IMG/VR virus record: IMGVR_UViG_3300045452_000041
Coordinates: 1-36,678 of that record
Reading direction: 5' to 3' (one strand)
Source of the DNA: a virus
DNA: 36,678 nt
Shown: positions 1,385 to 20,378 of the stretch, piece by piece
How the letters are laid out: every line of letters begins with the position of its first letter
Numbering within the stretch: position 1 is the stretch's first letter
Made by a program: the position numbers and the translations under genes
The notes under the pieces: generated by a model
Databases searched by the model: none
The model's input: only the letters and a program-made list of their open reading frames with translations
Told to the model about the DNA's origin: nothing

Positions 1385-2806
1385 CTGAACCCGCTGAACG
1401 TCGAGTACCGCAAGATCGACGCGCTGATCCCCTACGCCCGCAATCCGCGCACGCACACCGAGGCGCAGGTGGCCAAGATCGCCGCCAGCATCGTCGAGTA
1501 CGGCTGGACCAATCCGGTGCTGGTGGACGGGGACAACGGCGTCATTGCCGGCCATGGGCGGCTCGCTGCCGCGCGCAAGCTCGGTTTGACCGAGGTGCCG
1601 GTGATCGAGCTGGCGCACCTGTCGCCGACGCAAAAGCGCGCCTACGTCATCTCCGACAACCGCCTGGCGCTGGATGCAGGGTGGGACGAGGAACTGCTGG
1701 CGCTCGAGCTGGAGGAACTCCACGGGGCGGGCTACGATCTCGCGCTGACCGGCTTCGAAGACGCGGAGGTCGAAGCACTGGTGCTTGGCCAGGTCGCCGG
1801 CGAGGTTGACGCGGAGAAGCAGGACCAGGAGCCGGACGACGGCAGCCCGGACGCTGCAGACGATGTGCCAGCCGCTCCTGGCGTACCGGTGTCCCGCACG
1901 GGCGACGTGTGGGCGCTAGGCTCGCATCGTCTGGTCTGCGGCGATGCCAGCGATTCCAGCGTGATCGTTGCACTCATGCAAGGCGAAACGGCCACCTTGT
2001 GCTTCACCTCACCGCCCTACGGCAACCAGCGGGACTACACCAGCGGCGGCGTCGCCGATTGGGATGGCCTGATGCGAGGCGTATTCGCCCGCGTGCCGAT
2101 GTCCGACAACGGCCAGGTGCTGGTCAATCTCGGCCTGATCCATCGTGACAACGAAGTGGTCCCGTATTGGGACGGCTGGCTCGCGTGGATGCGCACGCAG
2201 GGCTGGCGGCGCTTTGCCTGGTACGTCTGGGATCAGGGGCCGGGCATGCCCGGCGACTGGGCGGGCCGCTTTGCGCCCAGCTTCGAGTTCGTCTTCCACT
2301 TCAATCGCGCCAGCCGCAAGCCGAACAAGATCGTGCCCTGCAAGCACGCGGGCCACGAGTCGCATCTGCGGGCGGACGGATCGTCGACGGCGATGCGCAG
2401 CAAGGATGGCGAGGTCGGAGGTTGGACGCACGCTGGCCAGCCCACGCAGGATCACCGCATTCCCGACTCGGTGATCCGGGTGATGCGGCACAAGGGAAAG
2501 ATAGGCCAGGGCATCGACCATCCCGCAGTGTTCCCGGTGGCGCTGCCGGAGTTCATCTTCGAGGCGTACTCCAACCCGGGCGACGTCGTGTTCGAACCGT
2601 TCGGCGGCTCCGGCACTTCGATGCTTGCCGCGCAGCGCACGGGCCGTCAGTGCCGGTGTGTCGAGATCGCGCCGGAGTATGTGGACGTCGCCATCAAGCG
2701 CTTCCAGCAGAATTTCCCCGGCGTGCCGGTGACGCTGCTTGCGACTCGCCAGCCCCTCGATGAAGTTGCAGCCGAGCGACTGCGAGTCGCCGAGGTGCCG
2801 GCATGA
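1385..2806 (+). CDS. ParB-like domain fused to beta-class DNA methyltransferase (SPPY type)
   Basis: About 473 residues. An N-terminal ParB/Srx-like domain (about 1-110; GHGRLAAA near 55) precedes an S-adenosylmethionine-dependent DNA methyltransferase. Catalytic motif IV is TSPPYG at 2006-2023 (near residue 208) and the cofactor motif FGGSGT is near residue 406; catalytic motif before cofactor motif is the beta-class order. SPPY favours N4-cytosine methylation, though N6-adenine is possible. The start is unusual: the frame opens after a stop at 1322 and has no ATG, GTG or TTG before GTG 1469, which would cut about 28 residues from the ParB fold. CTG 1385 (or ATT 1382) follows a GAGG at 1373-1376 and is where homologues begin; either it is a non-standard start or the 5' end is damaged. 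The last four bases overlap the next gene. Confidence 0.8.
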   Translation: MNPLNVEYRKIDALIPYARNPRTHTEAQVAKIAASIVEYGWTNPVLVDGDNGVIAGHGRLAAARKLGLTEVPVIELAHLSPTQKRAYVISDNRLALDAGWDEELLALELEELHGAGYDLALTGFEDAEVEALVLGQVAGEVDAEKQDQEPDDGSPDAADDVPAAPGVPVSRTGDVWALGSHRLVCGDASDSSVIVALMQGETATLCFTSPPYGNQRDYTSGGVADWDGLMRGVFARVPMSDNGQVLVNLGLIHRDNEVVPYWDGWLAWMRTQGWRRFAWYVWDQGPGMPGDWAGRFAPSFEFVFHFNRASRKPNKIVPCKHAGHESHLRADGSSTAMRSKDGEVGGWTHAGQPTQDHRIPDSVIRVMRHKGKIGQGIDHPAVFPVALPEFIFEAYSNPGDVVFEPFGGSGTSMLAAQRTGRQCRCVEIAPEYVDVAIKRFQQNFPGVPVTLLATRQPLDEVAAERLRVAEVPA

Positions 2807-4077
2807 CCGCATCCTGGCTGGCCGACAAGATCGAGCAGTGGCCAACGGCCAGACTGCTGCCGTACGCAAGGAACGCGCGCACCCACTCCGGCGACCAAGT
2901 GGCGCAAATCGCCGCGTCGATCGCCGAGTTTGGGTTCACCAATCCGATCCTGGCCGGCAGTGATGGCGTCATCGTCGCCGGGCACGGCCGACTGGCAGCC
3001 GCCCACAAGCTGGGGATGGAGAAGGTGCCGGTGGTGGTGCTGGACCATCTGAATGCCACGCAGCGGCGCGCATTGGTGATCGCAGACAACCGGATTGCGG
3101 AGAACGCCGGCTGGGACGACGCGATGCTGCGCATCGAGCTCGCGGCGCTGGCCGACGACGACTTTGACGTCTCACTCACCGGGTTCGACGCGGACGCCTT
3201 GGCCGAACTGATGGCTGGCGACGAACCTGACGCAACCGGTCAGACCGATGACGACGCGGTCCCCGAGGTCGGTGAGACCCCGGTGTCACGTCCCGGGGAC
3301 GTGTGGTTGCTGGGCGGCCACCGGCTGCTGTGCGGTGACGCCACGGTCGCTTCGAGCTACGAGCGACTACTGGCGGGTGAGAAGGCGGACATGGTGTTCA
3401 CGGACCCGCCGTACAACGTGAACTACGCCAACAGTGCCAAGGACAAGATGCGCGGCAAAGATCGCGCGATTCTGAACGACAACCTCGGCGACGGCTTCTA
3501 CGACTTCCTGCTGGCGGCGCTGACGCCCACCGTGGCGCATTGCCGGGGCGGGATCTACGTGGCAATGTCGTCCAGCGAACTCGATGTGCTGCAGGCTGCC
3601 TTCCGCGCAGCGGGCGGCAAGTGGTCGACGTTCATCATCTGGGCCAAGAACACTTTCACGCTCGGCCGCGCCGACTACCAGCGCCAGTACGAGCCGATCC
3701 TGTACGGCTGGCCTGAGGGGGCGCAGCGTCACTGGTGCGGCGACCGGGACCAGGGCGACGTCTGGAACATCAAGAAGCCGCAGAAGAATGACCTGCATCC
3801 GACGATGAAGCCGGTGGAGCTGGTCGAACGCGCGATCCGCAATTCCAGCCGTCCGGGCAACGTGGTCCTCGACCCATTCGGCGGCTCCGGCACAACGCTG
3901 ATCGCTGCCGAGAAGTCGGGGCGCTTGGCGCGGTTGATTGAGCTTGACCCGAAATACGTCGACGTGATCGTCCGCCGCTGGCAGGACTACACCGGAAAAG
4001 AGGCCACAAGCGAGGCTACTGGAAGCACGTTCAGGGAAATTGCAGCCGCGGCGCAAGGCTTTCCTGCGGTGGCATGA
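2803..4077 (+). CDS. ParB-like domain fused to beta-class DNA methyltransferase (DPPY type)
   Basis: This 424-residue paralogue of the preceding gene starts at an ATGA overlap and is translationally coupled to it. Residues about 14-120 form the ParB-like domain (LLPYARNARTH, GHGRLAAAHKLG, RALVIADNR). Catalytic motif IV is TDPPYN at residues 200-205, and the cofactor loop FGGSGTT is at about 359-365, followed by LIELDPKYVDVIVRRW. The DPPY form usually marks N6-adenine methylation. Phages use such enzymes to escape host restriction; no matching nuclease gene lies nearby, so these look like orphan methylases. The role of the ParB-like part is unsettled: it may guide DNA binding or bind a nucleotide. 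The two genes share the domain plan but differ in the catalytic motif, so they probably differ in specificity. Confidence 0.88.
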   Translation: MTASWLADKIEQWPTARLLPYARNARTHSGDQVAQIAASIAEFGFTNPILAGSDGVIVAGHGRLAAAHKLGMEKVPVVVLDHLNATQRRALVIADNRIAENAGWDDAMLRIELAALADDDFDVSLTGFDADALAELMAGDEPDATGQTDDDAVPEVGETPVSRPGDVWLLGGHRLLCGDATVASSYERLLAGEKADMVFTDPPYNVNYANSAKDKMRGKDRAILNDNLGDGFYDFLLAALTPTVAHCRGGIYVAMSSSELDVLQAAFRAAGGKWSTFIIWAKNTFTLGRADYQRQYEPILYGWPEGAQRHWCGDRDQGDVWNIKKPQKNDLHPTMKPVELVERAIRNSSRPGNVVLDPFGGSGTTLIAAEKSGRLARLIELDPKYVDVIVRRWQDYTGKEATSEATGSTFREIAAAAQGFPAVA

Positions 4078-13657: not shown

Positions 13658-13858
13658 ATGAAAACTCAACTCCTGCTCACTCGCCCGCACACCCATGCGG
13701 GGCGCAGGCGCCAGCCTGGCGAGCGCATCGAGCTCGATGCCGACCTCGCCCGGTGGCTGGTGTCCATCGGCAGCGCCCGTGCGCTGCCACCCACCCGATC
13801 AGGAATGCCGCCGGCGCGTCCGGCGCCGTCCACCCAACGTAAGGAACCCAAGCCATGA
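13658..13858 (+). CDS. Small phage protein, DUF7210-like
   Basis: The 66-residue protein has the pattern LLTRPHTHAGRRRQPGERIE followed by LDADLARWLVSIGSA, which occurs in a family of small phage proteins found between the tail terminator and tube genes (I associate it with DUF7210). These have a beta unit with the conserved HTHAG motif and a short helix; the function is unknown. The last 20 residues are rich in Pro, Arg and Lys and unlikely to fold. The gene starts four bases after its neighbour and overlaps the next by four bases (ATGA at 13855), so it belongs to the tightly coupled tail operon. Confidence 0.7.
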   Translation: MKTQLLLTRPHTHAGRRRQPGERIELDADLARWLVSIGSARALPPTRSGMPPARPAPSTQRKEPKP

Positions 13859-14628
13859 GCACCTATGCGAGTTTCCAGGGCCGAGTCTTTCTCGGCAAAC
13901 GTGACGCCGCCGGCCTGCCGATCGAAGTACGCTCGCCCGGCAACGTCGCCGAGCTCAAGCTCGCCCTCAAGACCGACGTGCTGGAGCATTACGAGAGCCA
14001 GACCGGCCAGCGCACGCTGGACCACCGCATGGTCAAGCAGAAGTCAGCGACGGTGAACCTCACGCTGGAGGAGTTCACCAAGGAGAACCTGGCGCTCGCC
14101 CTGTACGGCAACCACGTCACTGCCGTCCCCGGCACCGTCACCGACGAACCAGTCGGCGGCGTCACGCCGGCAGTGGGCGACCGCTACTTTCTGGCGCACC
14201 CCAAGATCTCCAGCTTGGTGGTCAAGGACAGCAGTGCCACGCCCGCCACCCTGGTGGCCGGCGTCGACTACACCGCGGACCTCGATTTCGGCGCCCTGCA
14301 GTTCCTGCGCCTGGACGACGGCGGTTCGCCCGCAGTGCCTTACGTCGCCCCCTTCAAGGCCAGCTACGGCTTTGGCGCCGCCACCGAGATCGGCATCTTC
14401 ACCCAGCCGCTGCCCGAACGCTATCTGCGCCTGGAGGGTCTGAACACCGCGCAGGGTAATGCCAAGGTGCTGGTCGAGCTGTACCGGGTGGCCTTCGATC
14501 CGCTCAAGGAGATCTCCTTCATCTCGGACGAATACAACAAGTTCGAGATGGAAGGCTCGCTGCTGGCCGATGCCAGCAAGCCTTTCGACGCGGTGCTGGG
14601 CCAGTTCGGCCGCATCGTCCAACTCTGA
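13855..14628 (+). CDS. Major tail tube protein
   Basis: This 257-residue protein has the features of siphophage tube proteins: an N-terminal strand (YASFQGRVFLGKRD), the ATVNLTLEEFTKENLALALY segment near residue 65, and a C-terminal half that ends in DEYNKFEMEGSLLADASKPF, a widespread tube motif. Hexamer rings stack to form the tail tube around the tape measure. The GGAA at normal spacing and the ATGA overlap with the preceding gene suit high, coupled expression. A loop at about 75-130 contains VTDEPVGGVTPAVGDRYFLA and may be an added surface domain. The next gene is the tail assembly chaperone, as in most siphophages. Confidence 0.87.
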   Translation: MSTYASFQGRVFLGKRDAAGLPIEVRSPGNVAELKLALKTDVLEHYESQTGQRTLDHRMVKQKSATVNLTLEEFTKENLALALYGNHVTAVPGTVTDEPVGGVTPAVGDRYFLAHPKISSLVVKDSSATPATLVAGVDYTADLDFGALQFLRLDDGGSPAVPYVAPFKASYGFGAATEIGIFTQPLPERYLRLEGLNTAQGNAKVLVELYRVAFDPLKEISFISDEYNKFEMEGSLLADASKPFDAVLGQFGRIVQL

Positions 14629-14638
14629 GGCATGAGGC

Positions 14639-15043
14639 ATGAGTGATCTGGAGACCCTGATCCCGCAGGCGGTCGAACTGACGATCGGCGGCGAAGCGCT
14701 GGCGATCAAGCCCTTGAAGGTGGGCCAGATGCCGGCCTTCCTGCGGGCTGTTTCGCCGGTGATGGAGCACCTCACCCGCGGCGAGATCGACTGGCTGCTG
14801 CTGTTCGGCGACCATGGCGATGATCTCCTGTCCGCCATCGGCATCGCGGTTGGCAAGCCGCGTCCTTGGGTCGATGAACTGGCGGCGGATGAAGCCATCC
14901 TGCTGGCGGCCAAGGTGATCGAGGTGAATGCGGATTTTTTTACGCGGACGGTGCTCCCGCGGCTGGACGGACTGTTCGCGCAGGCCAAGAGCCTGGCGCC
15001 GGGCAGCGTGCCGGTGCCTGGTTCGACGCCGTCCAACGGCTGA
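14639..15043 (+). CDS. Tail assembly chaperone, short form (gpG-like)
   Basis: The 134-residue protein comes between the tube and tape measure genes, where siphophages encode chaperones that coat the tape measure during tail assembly. It begins with a beta unit (AVELTIGGEALAIKPLKVGQ) and continues with helices (MPAFLRAVSPVMEHLTRGEI, AADEAILLAAKVIEV). The T7 run at 14935-14941 lies at codons 100-101, in the frame needed for a -1 slip, so most ribosomes make this form while a minority makes the longer one. The last 33 residues after the slip site are low in structure (SLAPGSVPVPGSTPSNG), as often seen for the part of gpG beyond the slippery site. Confidence 0.85.
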   Translation: MSDLETLIPQAVELTIGGEALAIKPLKVGQMPAFLRAVSPVMEHLTRGEIDWLLLFGDHGDDLLSAIGIAVGKPRPWVDELAADEAILLAAKVIEVNADFFTRTVLPRLDGLFAQAKSLAPGSVPVPGSTPSNG

Positions 15044-15240
15044 TCGACCACGGGCATCGCCTGCCAGACGTCCTCGACTACACGCTCGGTCAGTTCCGCG
15101 GCTTCCTCGCGGCCTGCGAACGCTCGGAAGCCGCGCGCGATGCGCGGCTGCTGTCGCTGGTGGCCACCGGCGCCCGCGGCGATGCCCGGCACCTGGACCA
15201 GGCGCTGGACCGACTGGCCGAACGCGCCCGCCCGACATGA
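14639..15240 (+). CDS. Tail assembly chaperone, -1 frameshift fusion (gpGT-like)
   Basis: A -1 slip at T TTT TTT (14935-14941) moves ribosomes into a frame that has no usable start of its own and stays open to TGA 15238-15240. The fusion joins 14639-14941 to 14941-15240 and has about 200 residues. The added part is clearly coding: AWFDAVQRLIDHGHRLPDVL, DYTLGQFRGFLAACERSEAA, then a helical ending. In lambda the GT fusion binds the tape measure and recruits tube subunits, and the ratio G:GT matters for assembly. The next gene begins at the stop of this frame (ATGA at 15237), which shows that the frame is truly translated to that point. Confidence 0.85.
14935..14941 (+). promoter_or_regulatory. 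Programmed -1 frameshift heptamer T TTT TTT
   Basis: Seven T residues are read as GAT TTT TTT ACG, the exact X XXY YYZ phase for simultaneous slippage of two Phe tRNAs. The -1 frame continues as TAC GCG and runs for 99 more codons. No strong stimulating hairpin was found just downstream, though CCGCGG lies 19 bases on. Confidence 0.85.
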
Positions 15241-15884
15241 AGATTTCCATCCGCATCGACAGTACTGCCGCGCGGGCGCAACTGCGCCGCTGGGGCGGCG
15301 AATTCCGCGAGAAGGCGCACAAAGCCGCGGCCCGGGCCCTCGCCAGCGAGGCGGCGGAGATCAAGCAGGAGGTGCGTGGCCACGTCGCCGGAAAGATGGC
15401 GGTCGTCAAAAGGTCCTTCCTCAAAGGCTTCAATGCCAAGGTGCTGGCCAAGGACACCAAGCGCCTGCCGGCGCTGTACGTCGGATCGCGCATTCCCTGG
15501 TCGGGGATGCACGAATCCGGCGGTCAGATCGGCGGCCGGATGCTGATCCCGCTGCATGGGCGCGTTGGGCGCAAACGCTTCAAGGCGCAGGTCGCTGAGC
15601 TGATGCGCGGCGGCAATGCCTATTTCATCAAGAACGCCAAGGGAAACATCGTGCTGATGGCCGAGAACATCAAGGAACACGCGCAGCCCCTGGCCGGCTT
15701 CAAGCGGCGCTACCGCAAGGCCGAGGGCGTGAAGCGCATCAAGCGTGGTGCCGACGTGCCGATCGCCGTGCTGGTGCCCCGGGTGGTGCTGAAGAAGCGC
15801 CTGGACGTCGTGCGCTTGGTGACCGGCCGCATCCCGCGCCTGGCGGCCGCCGTCGAAAAACAGCTCGCCGCGCTGGATCGATAG
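15237..15884 (+). CDS. Phage minor tail/morphogenesis protein, DUF6441-like
   Basis: This 215-residue basic protein starts at an ATGA overlap with the chaperone fusion frame and ends just before the tape measure start. The N-terminal region is helical and Ala-rich (KAHKAAARALASEAAEIKQE), followed by a strand-rich core with YVGSRIPWSGMHESGGQIGG and a Lys/Arg-rich C-terminal half (FKRRYRKAEGVKRIKRG). I associate the pattern with DUF6441, a phage family found beside tape measure genes. The role is not established. Its place and basic charge would allow it to act in tail completion or tape measure handling, but that is inference. A longer frame that starts at 14928 was rejected because it runs through the chaperone. 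Confidence 0.75.
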   Translation: MKISIRIDSTAARAQLRRWGGEFREKAHKAAARALASEAAEIKQEVRGHVAGKMAVVKRSFLKGFNAKVLAKDTKRLPALYVGSRIPWSGMHESGGQIGGRMLIPLHGRVGRKRFKAQVAELMRGGNAYFIKNAKGNIVLMAENIKEHAQPLAGFKRRYRKAEGVKRIKRGADVPIAVLVPRVVLKKRLDVVRLVTGRIPRLAAAVEKQLAALDR

Positions 15885-18800
15885 ATGGCCAAACGCATTT
15901 CCATCCTCGTCGCGCTCGAAGGCGCCGACGAGGGGCTCAAGCGCGCCATCACTTCGGCCGAGCGCAGCCTGGGGGAGCTCTCTAGCAGCGCCAAGACAGC
16001 AGGCGCCAAGGCCGCCGCCGGCATGGCTGAAGTCAAAGCCGGCATGTCCGCCTTCGGCGATCAGGTGGCTACCGCCAAGACTCAGCTGCTCGCGTTCCTG
16101 TCCATCAGCTGGGCCGCCGGCAAGGTGCAGCAGATCGTCCAGGTCGCCGATGCCTGGAACATGATGTCGGCGCGCCTGAAGCTGGCGACTGCCGGCCAGC
16201 AGGAATACACGACGGCCCAGAAGGAACTGTTCGACATCGCCCAGCGCATCGGCGTGCCGATCCAGGAAACCGCCACGCTGTACGGGCGGCTGCAGCAGGC
16301 GGTACGCATGCTGGGCGGCGAGCAGCAGGATGCCCTGTCGATCACCGAGAGCATCTCGCAGGCGCTGCGCCTCTCGGGTGCTTCGGCCACGGAAGCGCAG
16401 TCGGCGCTGCTGCAGTTCGGCCAGGCACTCGCCTCGGGCGCGCTGCGCGGCGACGAATTCAACTCGGTGGTCGAGAACAGTCCGCGCCTGGCCCGCGCGC
16501 TGGCCGACGGCCTGAACGTGCCGATTGGGCGGCTTCGCAAGCTTGCGCAAGAGGGGCAGCTCACCGCCGACGTGGTGGTCAATGCGCTGATGTCGCAAAA
16601 GGACAGGCTCGCCGCCGAATACGCGCAGCTGCCGCAGACCGTGACCCAGGCTTTGGAGCGCCTGCGCAACGCCTTCGGCCAGTGGATCAGCCGCCTGGAC
16701 GAGTCGACCGGCATCACCCAAAAACTCGCGCAGGCGCTGACATGGCTGGCGCAGAACCTGGAGGCGGTGATGCAGTGGTTCAAGCGCATCGCCGAGGTCG
16801 GCCTGGCGGTCCTGATCTACCGCCTGATCCCGGCCCTCATCACCGCGTGGCAGACCGCGGGGGCAGCGGCGGTGACCGCCGCCAGCGCCACAACCGCCGC
16901 CTGGAGCACGGCCAAGCTGTCGGTGTCGGCGGCGGTGGCCAGCGTCGGCCTGCTCAAAACCGCTTTCGCCGGGTTGGGCGCCTTCCTGGTGGGTTGGGAG
17001 ATCGGCACCTGGCTGTCTGAGAAATTCGAGATCGTGCGCAAGGCCGGCATCTTCATGGTGGAGGTGCTGGTCAAGGCGGTGGAGCAACTGCGCTTTCGCT
17101 GGGAGGTGTTCGCCGCGGTCTTCACCTCCGACACCATTGCCGCGGCCACGCAGCGGCACCAGGCGCGCCTCGCGGAGATGAACCAGATCTTCGCGCAGAT
17201 GTATGCCGAAGCCTCCAGGGGTGCGGACGCCGCCAGGGGAGCCATGAGCGCTGCGGGCTCCGCTGCCGAGGAGATCGCCAGGCGGCTGGAAGCGGTGCGT
17301 CAGGGCACACAGGAAGCAGTCGTGCGCGGCATCGAAGCCGTGCACGCGGCCCTGGAGAAACTGAAATCCCGCCTCGGTACGGTCGAACAGGCCGTGGGCA
17401 AGGCCAACCAGACGGTCACCGATGCCACCGCCAAGATGGCCGAGGCGTACAAAGGCCTGACCGCCATCGCCGAGGCCAGCCTGCAGCGGCAGATCGAAGC
17501 CATCAAGGCGCGCTACCAGCAGGAGCAGGCCGCTCTCGATCAGGCCAAGCAGGCGCAAGCGTCTCTGATCGCCACATCGACCCAGCTTCTGACCGATGCC
17601 CTCGCCCAGCAGACGACGCTGCGCCGGCAAGCCACCGCCGACACACTCAAAGGGATCGACGAGGAGTCGAAGGCCAGGCTCGAAGCCGCGCGGCGCCAGG
17701 GGCTCACGGAGGAGGAGCGCCGCACCAACGTTCAGCGGGTGGAAAACGAGATCCTCGCCACCAAACGCCAGACCCTGACGCAGGCACTCACCGAGTACCG
17801 GCAGCACATCGACGCGCTCAATGCCGAGGCGAATCGGCACCTGTCCGAGGTCAAGCGCATCGAAGAGGAAAAGCGCCAGCTTTCGCTTTCAACCGAGGAG
17901 CGCATCCGCGAGATCCGGCGCGCCGGCCTCTCCGAGTTCGAAGCGACCGAGGACCGCAAGCGCCAGATCGCCGAATACCAGCAGAAAGCGCGCGCGGCGC
18001 TGGCGCAGGGCGAATTCGAGCAGGCCCGGCAACTGGCGCAAAAGGCGATGGACCTAGCCGCACAGGTGGCCAGCAGCCAGACCAGCGAGGCCAAGCGGGC
18101 GCAGGAGGCGCGCAAGCAGTCGGAGCAGGGCGCTTCCCAGATCACGCAACTGGAGGCGCAGTCGCGTGAGGCCTACCGCAAGCAGGAGTACGCCCAGGCC
18201 GAAGCCCTGATGCGCCAGGCCGACCAGCTGCGTGCCGATCTGGCCCAGAAGACGCGGGAGGCGGATGCGCAGGTGGTCCAGGGCAAGGACGGCGTCAACC
18301 AGGCGATCCAACGCATCCGGGACTCGCAGGAGATCCTCAACAGGACCTTGGACGCAGAAAGCGCGGCGCACCAGAAAGCCGCGCAGTCGGCGCTGACCGC
18401 GCGCGACGGGATCAAGCAGACCCTCGCGCAGACCGAGCGCCAGATTGACCAGATCACGGCCAAGCTCAAAGAGGGGCTGAAGGTCACGCTGGATGCCGAC
18501 AGCACGCGCTTGGAGAAAGCGATCGCCGATCTCGACAAAGCCCTGGCCGAAAAGGACCGGCTGCTGGTGATCGGGGCCGATCTGGAGCAGGCGCGCAAGG
18601 ACCTGCAGGAGTACGAGCAACTCCTGAAAGACGGCAAGACCCTGCCGGTCGATGCTGACTCGTCCAAGGCCAAGGCGGCGCTGGACCAGCTCAAGGCCTA
18701 TGCCCAGGAGACTTCCCAGCTGGAGATGAAAGTGTCGACCGAGAAGGCGCAGGCGGCGGTCACGAACATCGAGAGTCAGATCCGAGCGCTAGATCGCATC

Positions 18801-19928
18801 CGCACCGAGTCGCAGCACACGGCGAGCAGCAACGTCGATGCGGTGCGCCGTGAGATCCAGAGCCTCAACAGCATGAACACCGCCAGCACCCACACCGTCA
18901 CGGTGCGCAAGGTGGAGGCGAATGCCAGCGGCGGCCTGGTCGGGCAAGGCGTGCGCCACTTTGCGGCGGGCGGCGCCGTCGCCTCCGCGTTCCCGCGCAT
19001 GACGGGCGGCTCAGTGCCGGGCTCCGGCCACCACGACAGCGTGCCGCGCACGCTGGAGGCCGGCGCCTTCGTTCTGCGTAAGGCAGCGGTGCGCAAGTAC
19101 GGCGGCGGCGCCCTGTCGAAACTCGCCAGCGGCATCGCCAGATTCGCGAGCGGCGGGTCGGTAAACGCGGGTAACGCGGGCGCAGGTATCAAGGACCCTC
19201 GGGCCCGCATCGGCGGCGGTGCGGACGGCAGCGTCAAGCGCAACCGCGAGGCGGTTGAAGCCCAGAAGATGATCGAGCTCGGCCTGCGCGGCCTGGACGA
19301 GTATTCGCGCTGGCTGGAATGGAAGTACGGCGCCGCTGTGAGCCTGGACATGCGCTGGAAGACCATGGACAACTACGGCAAGCAGGCGCACCGGGACCGG
19401 CAGGTGCTCGCGACCCTGCTGCACCGCAAGACGCTCACCGGCAACGAGCGCCAGCAGCTCGATCAGATCAAGCAGACCTGGCGCCAGGCGATGGCGCAGC
19501 CGCTCCTCATGGGCAAGGACCTGGAGCGGGAGCTGATCGACTACATGGAGCGCAACCAGGGGCAGTTCTTCCGGGGCGGCGGCATGGCCAGATCGGACAC
19601 CGTTCCGGCGATGCTGACGCCTGGCGAGTACGTGGTGAACAAGAACGCGGTGGGCCGCTACGGCGCCGGCTTTTTCGAGGCAATCAACAGCCTGTCGCTG
19701 CCGGCACGCGCGCTCGCCGAGCGGGTGCAGGGCTTCGCCTCGGGCGGCCTGGTCTCGCCTGTGACGTCCGGCCTGTCGCGCCCGGTGCTGCCGGAAGCCG
19801 CTGGGCCCACCCGCACCGTGCGGGTCGAACTGGCCGCTGGCGAGCGCCGCGTCGAGGCCACCATCGACCAGCGCGACGAATCACGCCTGCTGCAGATCCT
19901 CGAGCTGGCTCGGGCCCGGGCGGCCTGA
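15885..19928 (+). CDS. Tail tape measure protein
   Basis: The largest gene here (1347 residues). Residues about 75-265 are a tape measure N-terminal domain (TMP_2 type: ADAWNMMSARLKLATAGQQE, DEFNSVVENSPRLARALADG, LNVPIGRLRKLAQEGQLTAD). A hydrophobic stretch at about 305-375 (Ala-rich, then LLKTAFAGLGAFLVGWEIGT) could insert in the membrane during DNA entry. Residues about 440-1000 are a long coiled coil rich in Ala, Gln, Glu and Lys. Two copies of a surface motif close the protein: GHHDSVPRTLEAGAFVLRK near 1047 and ARSDTVPAMLTPGEYVVNK near 1236. With about 0.15 nm of tail per residue in known siphophages, the length implies a tail near 200 nm; this is an estimate. Confidence 0.95.
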   Translation: MAKRISILVALEGADEGLKRAITSAERSLGELSSSAKTAGAKAAAGMAEVKAGMSAFGDQVATAKTQLLAFLSISWAAGKVQQIVQVADAWNMMSARLKLATAGQQEYTTAQKELFDIAQRIGVPIQETATLYGRLQQAVRMLGGEQQDALSITESISQALRLSGASATEAQSALLQFGQALASGALRGDEFNSVVENSPRLARALADGLNVPIGRLRKLAQEGQLTADVVVNALMSQKDRLAAEYAQLPQTVTQALERLRNAFGQWISRLDESTGITQKLAQALTWLAQNLEAVMQWFKRIAEVGLAVLIYRLIPALITAWQTAGAAAVTAASATTAAWSTAKLSVSAAVASVGLLKTAFAGLGAFLVGWEIGTWLSEKFEIVRKAGIFMVEVLVKAVEQLRFRWEVFAAVFTSDTIAAATQRHQARLAEMNQIFAQMYAEASRGADAARGAMSAAGSAAEEIARRLEAVRQGTQEAVVRGIEAVHAALEKLKSRLGTVEQAVGKANQTVTDATAKMAEAYKGLTAIAEASLQRQIEAIKARYQQEQAALDQAKQAQASLIATSTQLLTDALAQQTTLRRQATADTLKGIDEESKARLEAARRQGLTEEERRTNVQRVENEILATKRQTLTQALTEYRQHIDALNAEANRHLSEVKRIEEEKRQLSLSTEERIREIRRAGLSEFEATEDRKRQIAEYQQKARAALAQGEFEQARQLAQKAMDLAAQVASSQTSEAKRAQEARKQSEQGASQITQLEAQSREAYRKQEYAQAEALMRQADQLRADLAQKTREADAQVVQGKDGVNQAIQRIRDSQEILNRTLDAESAAHQKAAQSALTARDGIKQTLAQTERQIDQITAKLKEGLKVTLDADSTRLEKAIADLDKALAEKDRLLVIGADLEQARKDLQEYEQLLKDGKTLPVDADSSKAKAALDQLKAYAQETSQLEMKVSTEKAQAAVTNIESQIRALDRIRTESQHTASSNVDAVRREIQSLNSMNTASTHTVTVRKVEANASGGLVGQGVRHFAAGGAVASAFPRMTGGSVPGSGHHDSVPRTLEAGAFVLRKAAVRKYGGGALSKLASGIARFASGGSVNAGNAGAGIKDPRARIGGGADGSVKRNREAVEAQKMIELGLRGLDEYSRWLEWKYGAAVSLDMRWKTMDNYGKQAHRDRQVLATLLHRKTLTGNERQQLDQIKQTWRQAMAQPLLMGKDLERELIDYMERNQGQFFRGGGMARSDTVPAMLTPGEYVVNKNAVGRYGAGFFEAINSLSLPARALAERVQGFASGGLVSPVTSGLSRPVLPEAAGPTRTVRVELAAGERRVEATIDQRDESRLLQILELARARAA

Positions 19929-19970
19929 GCCGCTTTGGTTTTTTTCGCTTTCGCCTTCCTTCCTTTCCCG

Positions 19971-20378
19971 ATGCAACTGAAGAACCTCGCCGACGAGGTG
20001 GCCCTGCTGCTGCCCGACGATCTGCTGTGGACCGACGAGCACGCCTGGTCCCCGGCGGTCGCCTCGACGTCTTACCTGATCACCGGTGCTTTGCTGATCC
20101 AGTCGGCGCTGCGGCAGTCGGGCCGACCCATCACGCTGGTGGGCGCCCCCGACATGGCCTGGGTGACGCGCGCCGCGGTGGAGCAGCTGCGCGCCTGGGC
20201 TGCCCTCCCGGTGGGGGCGAGCTCCGGCCGCTTTGCCCTGACCTTCGCCGATGGCCGCGTCTTCGCCGTCGCCTTCCGCCATGGTGACGGCGCCCTCGAG
20301 TGCGAGCCGGTGCTTGGCATCCCGGCCCGCGTCGACAGCGACTTCTACCGTCTGACCCTGCGTTTTCTGGAGATCTGA
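19971..20378 (+). CDS. Conserved phage tail-operon protein, unknown
   Basis: This 135-residue protein starts at ATG 19971; an upstream GTG would add only MVFFAFAFLPFP from the intergenic T-rich run, and no good ribosome site supports it. The protein has an N-terminal LKNLADEVALLLPDDLLWTD, a short Trp-containing segment (EHAWSPAVASTSYLITGALL), then strands and a final VDSDFYRLTLRFLEI. There is no signal peptide. The family occurs in related prophages after the tape measure gene, but I know of no assigned role. By position (where lambda has gene M) it would be a tail-tip component; this is inference. Three bases separate it from the large structural gene that follows. Confidence 0.7.
   Translation: MQLKNLADEVALLLPDDLLWTDEHAWSPAVASTSYLITGALLIQSALRQSGRPITLVGAPDMAWVTRAAVEQLRAWAALPVGASSGRFALTFADGRVFAVAFRHGDGALECEPVLGIPARVDSDFYRLTLRFLEI

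Follow-up and report, generated by a model that had tools for sequence, protein, structure and literature searches.

Does the gene that lies between the major tail protein and tape measure genes of this viral DNA encode one tail assembly chaperone or two? A run of seven T residues falls within this gene in the window (the whole stretch of 36,678 nucleotides that was analysed), and the sequence-only reading had proposed that a −1 shift at this run links two tail chaperone frames. A single DUF6441 gene separates the chaperone gene from that of the tape measure, and the gene order is tail tube, chaperone, −1 frame, DUF6441, tape measure:

13855..14628, + strand: major tail (tube) protein, upstream of the chaperone (PHROG 807, NCBIfam NF052337)
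14639..15043, + strand: 0-frame tail assembly chaperone (gpG-like), 134 aa (PHROG 1442, E 1.1e-32; dN/dS 0.14; AlphaFold pLDDT 78.9)
14935–14941, + strand: slippery heptamer T TTT TTT in X XXY YYZ phase (sequence, relatives, codon bias)
14941..15240, + strand: −1 frame, putative T half of GT, 99 codons and a stop, which would be read only after the shift (sequence, relatives, PHROG 13355 with E 1.8e-19, PHROG 14432 with E 1.7e-8)
15237..15884, + strand: DUF6441 (PF20039) gene, its start overlapping the −1 stop (E 6.7e-77)
15885..19928, + strand: tape measure protein of 1347 aa (similar at the DNA level to genes annotated as tape measure in D3112-like and other phages)

The 0 frame starts with an ATG at 14639 and reads GAT TTT TTT ACG across the run, so that the run opens with the last base of an Asp codon and goes on through two Phe codons. 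After a −1 slip at 14935–14941 the next codon would be the TAC at 14941, base 14941 being read twice, and the −1 frame stays open for 99 sense codons up to the TGA at 15238–15240, which overlaps the ATG at 15237–15239. The exact slip phase of the heptamer, GA(T TTT TTT), and a 99-codon frame whose stop overlaps the next start had both been claimed from the letters alone, and both are borne out.

Taken by itself, the window provides little evidence. TTTTTTT occurs twice, with 0.50 occurrences expected, and 14 of 100 shuffles reach two, so that the mere presence of the run is not remarkable. The second run (19939–19945) lies after the tape measure stop (19926–19928) and before the likely ATG of a PHROG 4408 gene at 19971, and looks intergenic. 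The −1 frames of seven large genes of the window contain 43 stops in 5159 codons, which puts the chance of 99 open −1 codons in this DNA at about 0.44; the open frame alone is therefore weak evidence in GC-rich DNA. Both single-sequence signals are weak; it is the relatives that decide.

Relatives were searched for with patterns that were back-translations into degenerate DNA, one of them spanning Phe–Phe, and TTT was thus not required by the search. The window, 80 loci from a scan of viral contigs (the best 80 of 165 confirmed loci) and 46 loci from a scan of bacterial and archaeal genomes make up 127 rows. With these best 80 of 165 viral loci included, the site is TTTTTTT in 119 rows and TTTTTTC in six (L033, L034, L091, L125, L126 and L127), while an N stands in one row and a T is missing from another. 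Loss of the heptamer in functional relatives had been named beforehand as the outcome that would count against the shift; instead, a slippery heptamer is kept in 125 of the 127 rows (best 80 of 165 viral loci included). The two exceptions, L101 (N in the site) and L121 (one T missing), come from one assembly, CP059256.1; the missing T of L121 breaks the frames, and the anomaly of this assembly may come from misreading of the homopolymer during sequencing, or from decay of the prophage. Nine rows were dropped: L031, L077 and L107 at contig ends, the partial L124, L101, L121 and the distant L125–L127, which are all TTTTTTC. This leaves 118 complete loci, including genomes of named bacteria, of which 99 are distinct (L081 is the window and was counted once). 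The same arrangement is found in all 118. The distance between the slip site and the 0-frame stop ranges between 91 and 133 nt, changing by multiples of three, and the −1 frame is open throughout, over 95 to 112 codons.

The constraint extends to the choice of codons. Among the 99 distinct complete loci the site reads TTT TTT in 97 and TTT TTC in two, and GAT always precedes it, whereas elsewhere in that frame Phe is encoded 57 times by TTT and 210 times by TTC, and upstream Asp 258 times by GAT and 506 times by GAC. All 26 representatives with less than 85% identity have TTT at codon 100 and again at codon 101, against a background of 0.35 (p = 1.1e-12 each, relatedness ignored), and all 26 have GAT at codon 99. 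When the bias in synonymous choice is ranked over 78 columns, codons 100 and 101 take the first two places and codon 99 the third (these p-values likewise ignore relatedness).

The site is also found in phages that have been named. A tblastn search of a phage collection with the 0-frame protein gave no match at E 0.01; phage relatives were found instead via the −1 frame and the tape measure, and PHROG 1442 ties the 0-frame protein to phage proteins. We opened the records of six of the 26 phages that match the −1 frame and of JBD93, which is among the 43 that the DNA search gave. All seven have an in-phase slippery T run at the homologous Phe–Phe followed by a long −1 continuation: TTTTTTT in Summit, DLP_3 and SM1, and TTTTTTC in HXX_Dennis, pAN, PotUPM1 and JBD93. 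A frameshift product is annotated in two of the seven (Summit and HXX_Dennis) and is lacking in the other five. Six of the 0-frame proteins were scanned against PHROG 1442, which is matched by those of JBD93, Summit, HXX_Dennis, pAN and PotUPM1, and not by that of SM1. In the Stenotrophomonas phage Summit (Delepquintavirus), T TTT TTT lies at the same Phe–Phe and the product is annotated as a 'tape measure chaperone frameshift product', although the protein sequence is distant and the tape measure gene directly follows the chaperone. The D3112-like phages, whose tape measure genes share DNA similarity with that of the window, are represented by JBD93. Its gp44 belongs to the same chaperone family (PHROG 1442, E 1.2e-62) and carries T TTT TTC at the homologous Phe–Phe, and its −1 frame of 86 codons ends just before the tape measure gene. 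The D3112-like phages differ from the window in having T6C rather than T7, and the window in having the DUF6441 gene between chaperone and tape measure.

These T6C variants bear on how the frame is changed. RNA polymerase could add or drop a U on the T run, so that ribosomes would read an altered mRNA in the second frame; T7 is indeed a homopolymer, and poly-A/T runs are described as slippery for polymerases too. However, the run is T6C in six of the 127 rows (best 80 of 165 viral loci included) and in four of the seven named phages, even T7 is shorter than the length cited for T runs in polymerase slippage (n above 8), and the feature that is kept is the tandem X XXY YYZ pairing and not the length of the run. 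The T6C variants have a shorter run and yet keep the tandem pairing, which makes joint slippage of two Phe tRNAs the better reading, and slippage of the polymerase is very unlikely.

Selection on the −1 frame was then considered together with its composition, in which two parts can be distinguished:

14941–15018, + strand: variable linker of the −1 frame (alignment, low pLDDT)
15019..15237, + strand: conserved helical T domain, from an invariant Trp at −1 codon 27 on (alignment, AlphaFold model, dN/dS)

Past the 0-frame stop the median dN/dS of the −1 frame is 0.20, which indicates purifying selection, compared with 1.3 and 3.0 for the same DNA in the other two frames; the value for the 0-frame chaperone upstream of the slip site is 0.14. 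Where both frames overlap, selection is relaxed (0.73 and 0.86), as may be expected of a linker that serves two frames. After the variable stretch the alignment gives a consensus WFDAVQxLIxHGHRLPDILDYTLAQVRGF and on. The AlphaFold model of the −1 product has helices at residues 22–36, 41–78 and 82–96, with block means of pLDDT of 91–97 for residues 31–90 and of 44–48 for residues 1–20, and the model of the T domain found no match in the PDB using Foldseek.

The −1 product matches PHROG 13355 and PHROG 14432, both annotated as of unknown function, which suggests that these families are the T halves of GT fusions. PHROG 13355 is a family of 58 residues that covers only the later part of the −1 product, and it has probably been truncated by gene callers. 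This short family, together with the short separate ORF that some phage records annotate for the second frame, could also be taken to mean that the second frame is a small gene of its own, started internally and coupled to the end of the chaperone ORF, with no frameshift. Yet none of the 99 distinct loci has an ATG, GTG or TTG after the slip site and before the Trp with which the domain begins, and one of them lacks any start; past the heptamer, the −1 frame of the window offers a single such codon, a GTG at codon 74, late in the frame. A start in the second frame upstream of the heptamer does exist in 27 of the 99 loci, but the window has none that would give an ORF of 60 aa, and a separate gene would leave the frozen TTT TTT codons unexplained. 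We thus consider it highly improbable. The claims that the −1 frame has no start of its own and would be missed by simple gene calling hold in practice, the late GTG being the sole candidate after the heptamer.

Heptamer conservation and purifying selection on the −1 frame both go beyond chance. That the run and the open frame coincide by accident, or that a sequencing error has split a single gene, has a negligible probability and is already refuted by relatives: a T7 run is expected about 0.5 times per window and 99 open codons have a chance of 0.44, but the same arrangement recurs in 118 complete loci, genomes of named bacteria and named phages.

The 0-frame protein is a tail assembly chaperone by sequence and by its surroundings. 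Among 98 distinct relatives the tube gene is a neighbour in 97, the tape measure gene in 96 and a downstream DUF6441 gene in all 98. It may be observed that this DUF6441 gene, of unknown function, separates chaperone and tape measure in the window as in each of these 98 relatives. Elsewhere in the window, two adjacent and overlapping ORFs (1469–2806 and 2803–4077) both match PHROG 498 (DNA methyltransferase) and ParB-like families, and look like tandem paralogues. Against predicted viral structures, the model of the chaperone has several matches, which include one in Stenotrophomonas phage DLP_5 (E 3e-7) and, in Xylella phage Sano, the 'Pre-tape measure frameshift protein G' (E 8.2e-4). Among solved structures, none of 140 Foldseek matches in the PDB reached E 0.001 or better, and sequence searches gave no credible relative (a single match at E 0.21 in one search and, in another, chiefly helical repeat proteins of artificial design besides one with HEAT repeats). 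In VIA-align, the HK97 chaperone (2ob9_A) ranked second of the 728 chains aligned, with a Z of 4.2 and an rmsd of 5.0 over 85 residues at 11% identity, where a Z below 8 may equal a common arrangement. An HK97-like (2ob9) fold of the N-terminal domain is suggested by this model comparison, which is not proof.

Programmed −1 ribosomal frameshifting at the T7 run thus very probably makes two tail assembly chaperones from one gene, and the proposed link between two tail chaperone frames is supported by PHROG 1442, by the site kept in 125 of the 127 rows and by selection on the −1 frame. Most ribosomes would make the 134-aa gpG-like protein. In a minority, the tRNA-Phe molecules in the P and A sites on TTT TTT would slip back by one base at 14935–14941, giving a fusion of 200 aa (101 + 99 residues), for which the predicted junction tryptic peptide is VIEVNADFFYADGAPAAGR, its counterpart in the unshifted product being VIEVNADFFTR. 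Binding of the tape measure protein would fall to the N-terminal domain that both products share, and the helical domain added at the C-terminus would bring in tail tube subunits, as with gpG and gpGT in lambda; this division of labour, in which the G part acts on the tape measure and the T part on the tube protein, is taken from a review on lambda. The gene position, the short product with its −1 extended form and the assumed roles are the same as for lambda G/GT in that review. We infer the slippage itself, its rate and the chaperone roles from the observed site, phase, conservation, second-frame selection and homology, and the rate of shifting could be low.

The slip site of lambda G/GT is GGGAAAG. 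The window has T TTT TTT in its place, and its 0 frame goes on for another 33 codons past the slip; the comparison with lambda covers layout and slip site. In the literature, Xu 2013 is cited for lambda G/GT and Christie 2002 for the P2 frameshift. That the T7 run differs from GGGAAAG is correct, as the sequence-only reading had stated, but it is not unusual, judging from publications on P2-like and D3112-like phages. A shift at T TTT TTC has been proposed for the D3112-like Pseudomonas phage PaMx73 (PMC4378225), and T-run slip sites are described in tail genes of P2-like phages, T6G in P2, and T7G and T7C in Smp131 and related prophages (PMC3931495). P2 E/E′ and the Smp131-like phages resemble the window in these T-run sites in tail genes, but they are P2-like myophages and are likened here by slip site only. 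In the collection of papers that we searched for T-run slip sites in tail genes, 'T TTT TTC' together with tail assembly and frameshift was found only in PMC4378225, and 'T TTT TTT' was not found.

We may wonder at this stage what stimulates the shift. No strong downstream stem had been seen in the letters, and folding agrees: downstream of the site the z-scores of the window are −0.80 and −0.70, not stronger than shuffles, the mean over the 99 loci is −0.10 compared with −0.90 for control windows, with no excess structure, and 33 sequences gave no consensus base pairs. A downstream stimulatory stem in the form of a simple stem-loop is rejected on these results. A dnaX-type −1 signal joins a Shine–Dalgarno-like stretch upstream to a downstream stem, of which the stem-loop is lacking here. 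A candidate for the upstream part is present:

14921..14927, + strand: candidate upstream stimulator, Shine–Dalgarno-like GAGGTGA, ending 7 nt before the heptamer (GAGG conservation, codon 95 bias)

GAGG lies 10 nt before the T run in 95 of the 99 distinct loci and also in JBD93. Codon 95 is GAG in 23/24 against a background of 0.57 and ranks sixth of the 78 columns, a rank that unrelated columns also reach. The duplex with the 16S tail is much stronger here than in the rest of the gene, its energy being attained by 0.9% of control windows (the control sampled 40 of the 99 loci), whereas a per-locus synonymous null gives a median p of 0.23, with none of the 99 loci below 0.05. Of nine distant relatives, four (L126, L127, L130 and L131) have a Shine–Dalgarno-like stretch matched by at most 7% of control windows and five have no notable match. 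Amino acid content and conservation account for part of the signal, and GAGGTGA is a candidate stimulator that is suggestive only and not clearly selected. A minimal signal can be tentatively drawn from these elements, although we regard it as doubtful: a U-run heptamer with GAGGTGA pairing to the anti-Shine–Dalgarno 7 nt upstream and no downstream structure, where rRNA–mRNA pairing would tune the ratio of G to GT and PHROG 13355 and 14432 would be the T halves.

The locus almost certainly holds a real, deeply conserved −1 frameshift of the G/GT type, which is ordinary for long-tailed phages, and the T-run type of slip sequence is already reported for the related D3112-like group. What the analysis contributes is the comparative evidence across the family and the likely assignment of two orphan PHROGs, 13355 and 14432, as T halves. 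The annotation of the window is corrected by a predicted 200-aa fusion that is invisible to simple gene calling. Moreover, the relatives amount to a deep alignment, made by nature, around a U-run slip site in phages of high GC content, which would be useful for asking what sets the rate of shifting when downstream structure is absent.
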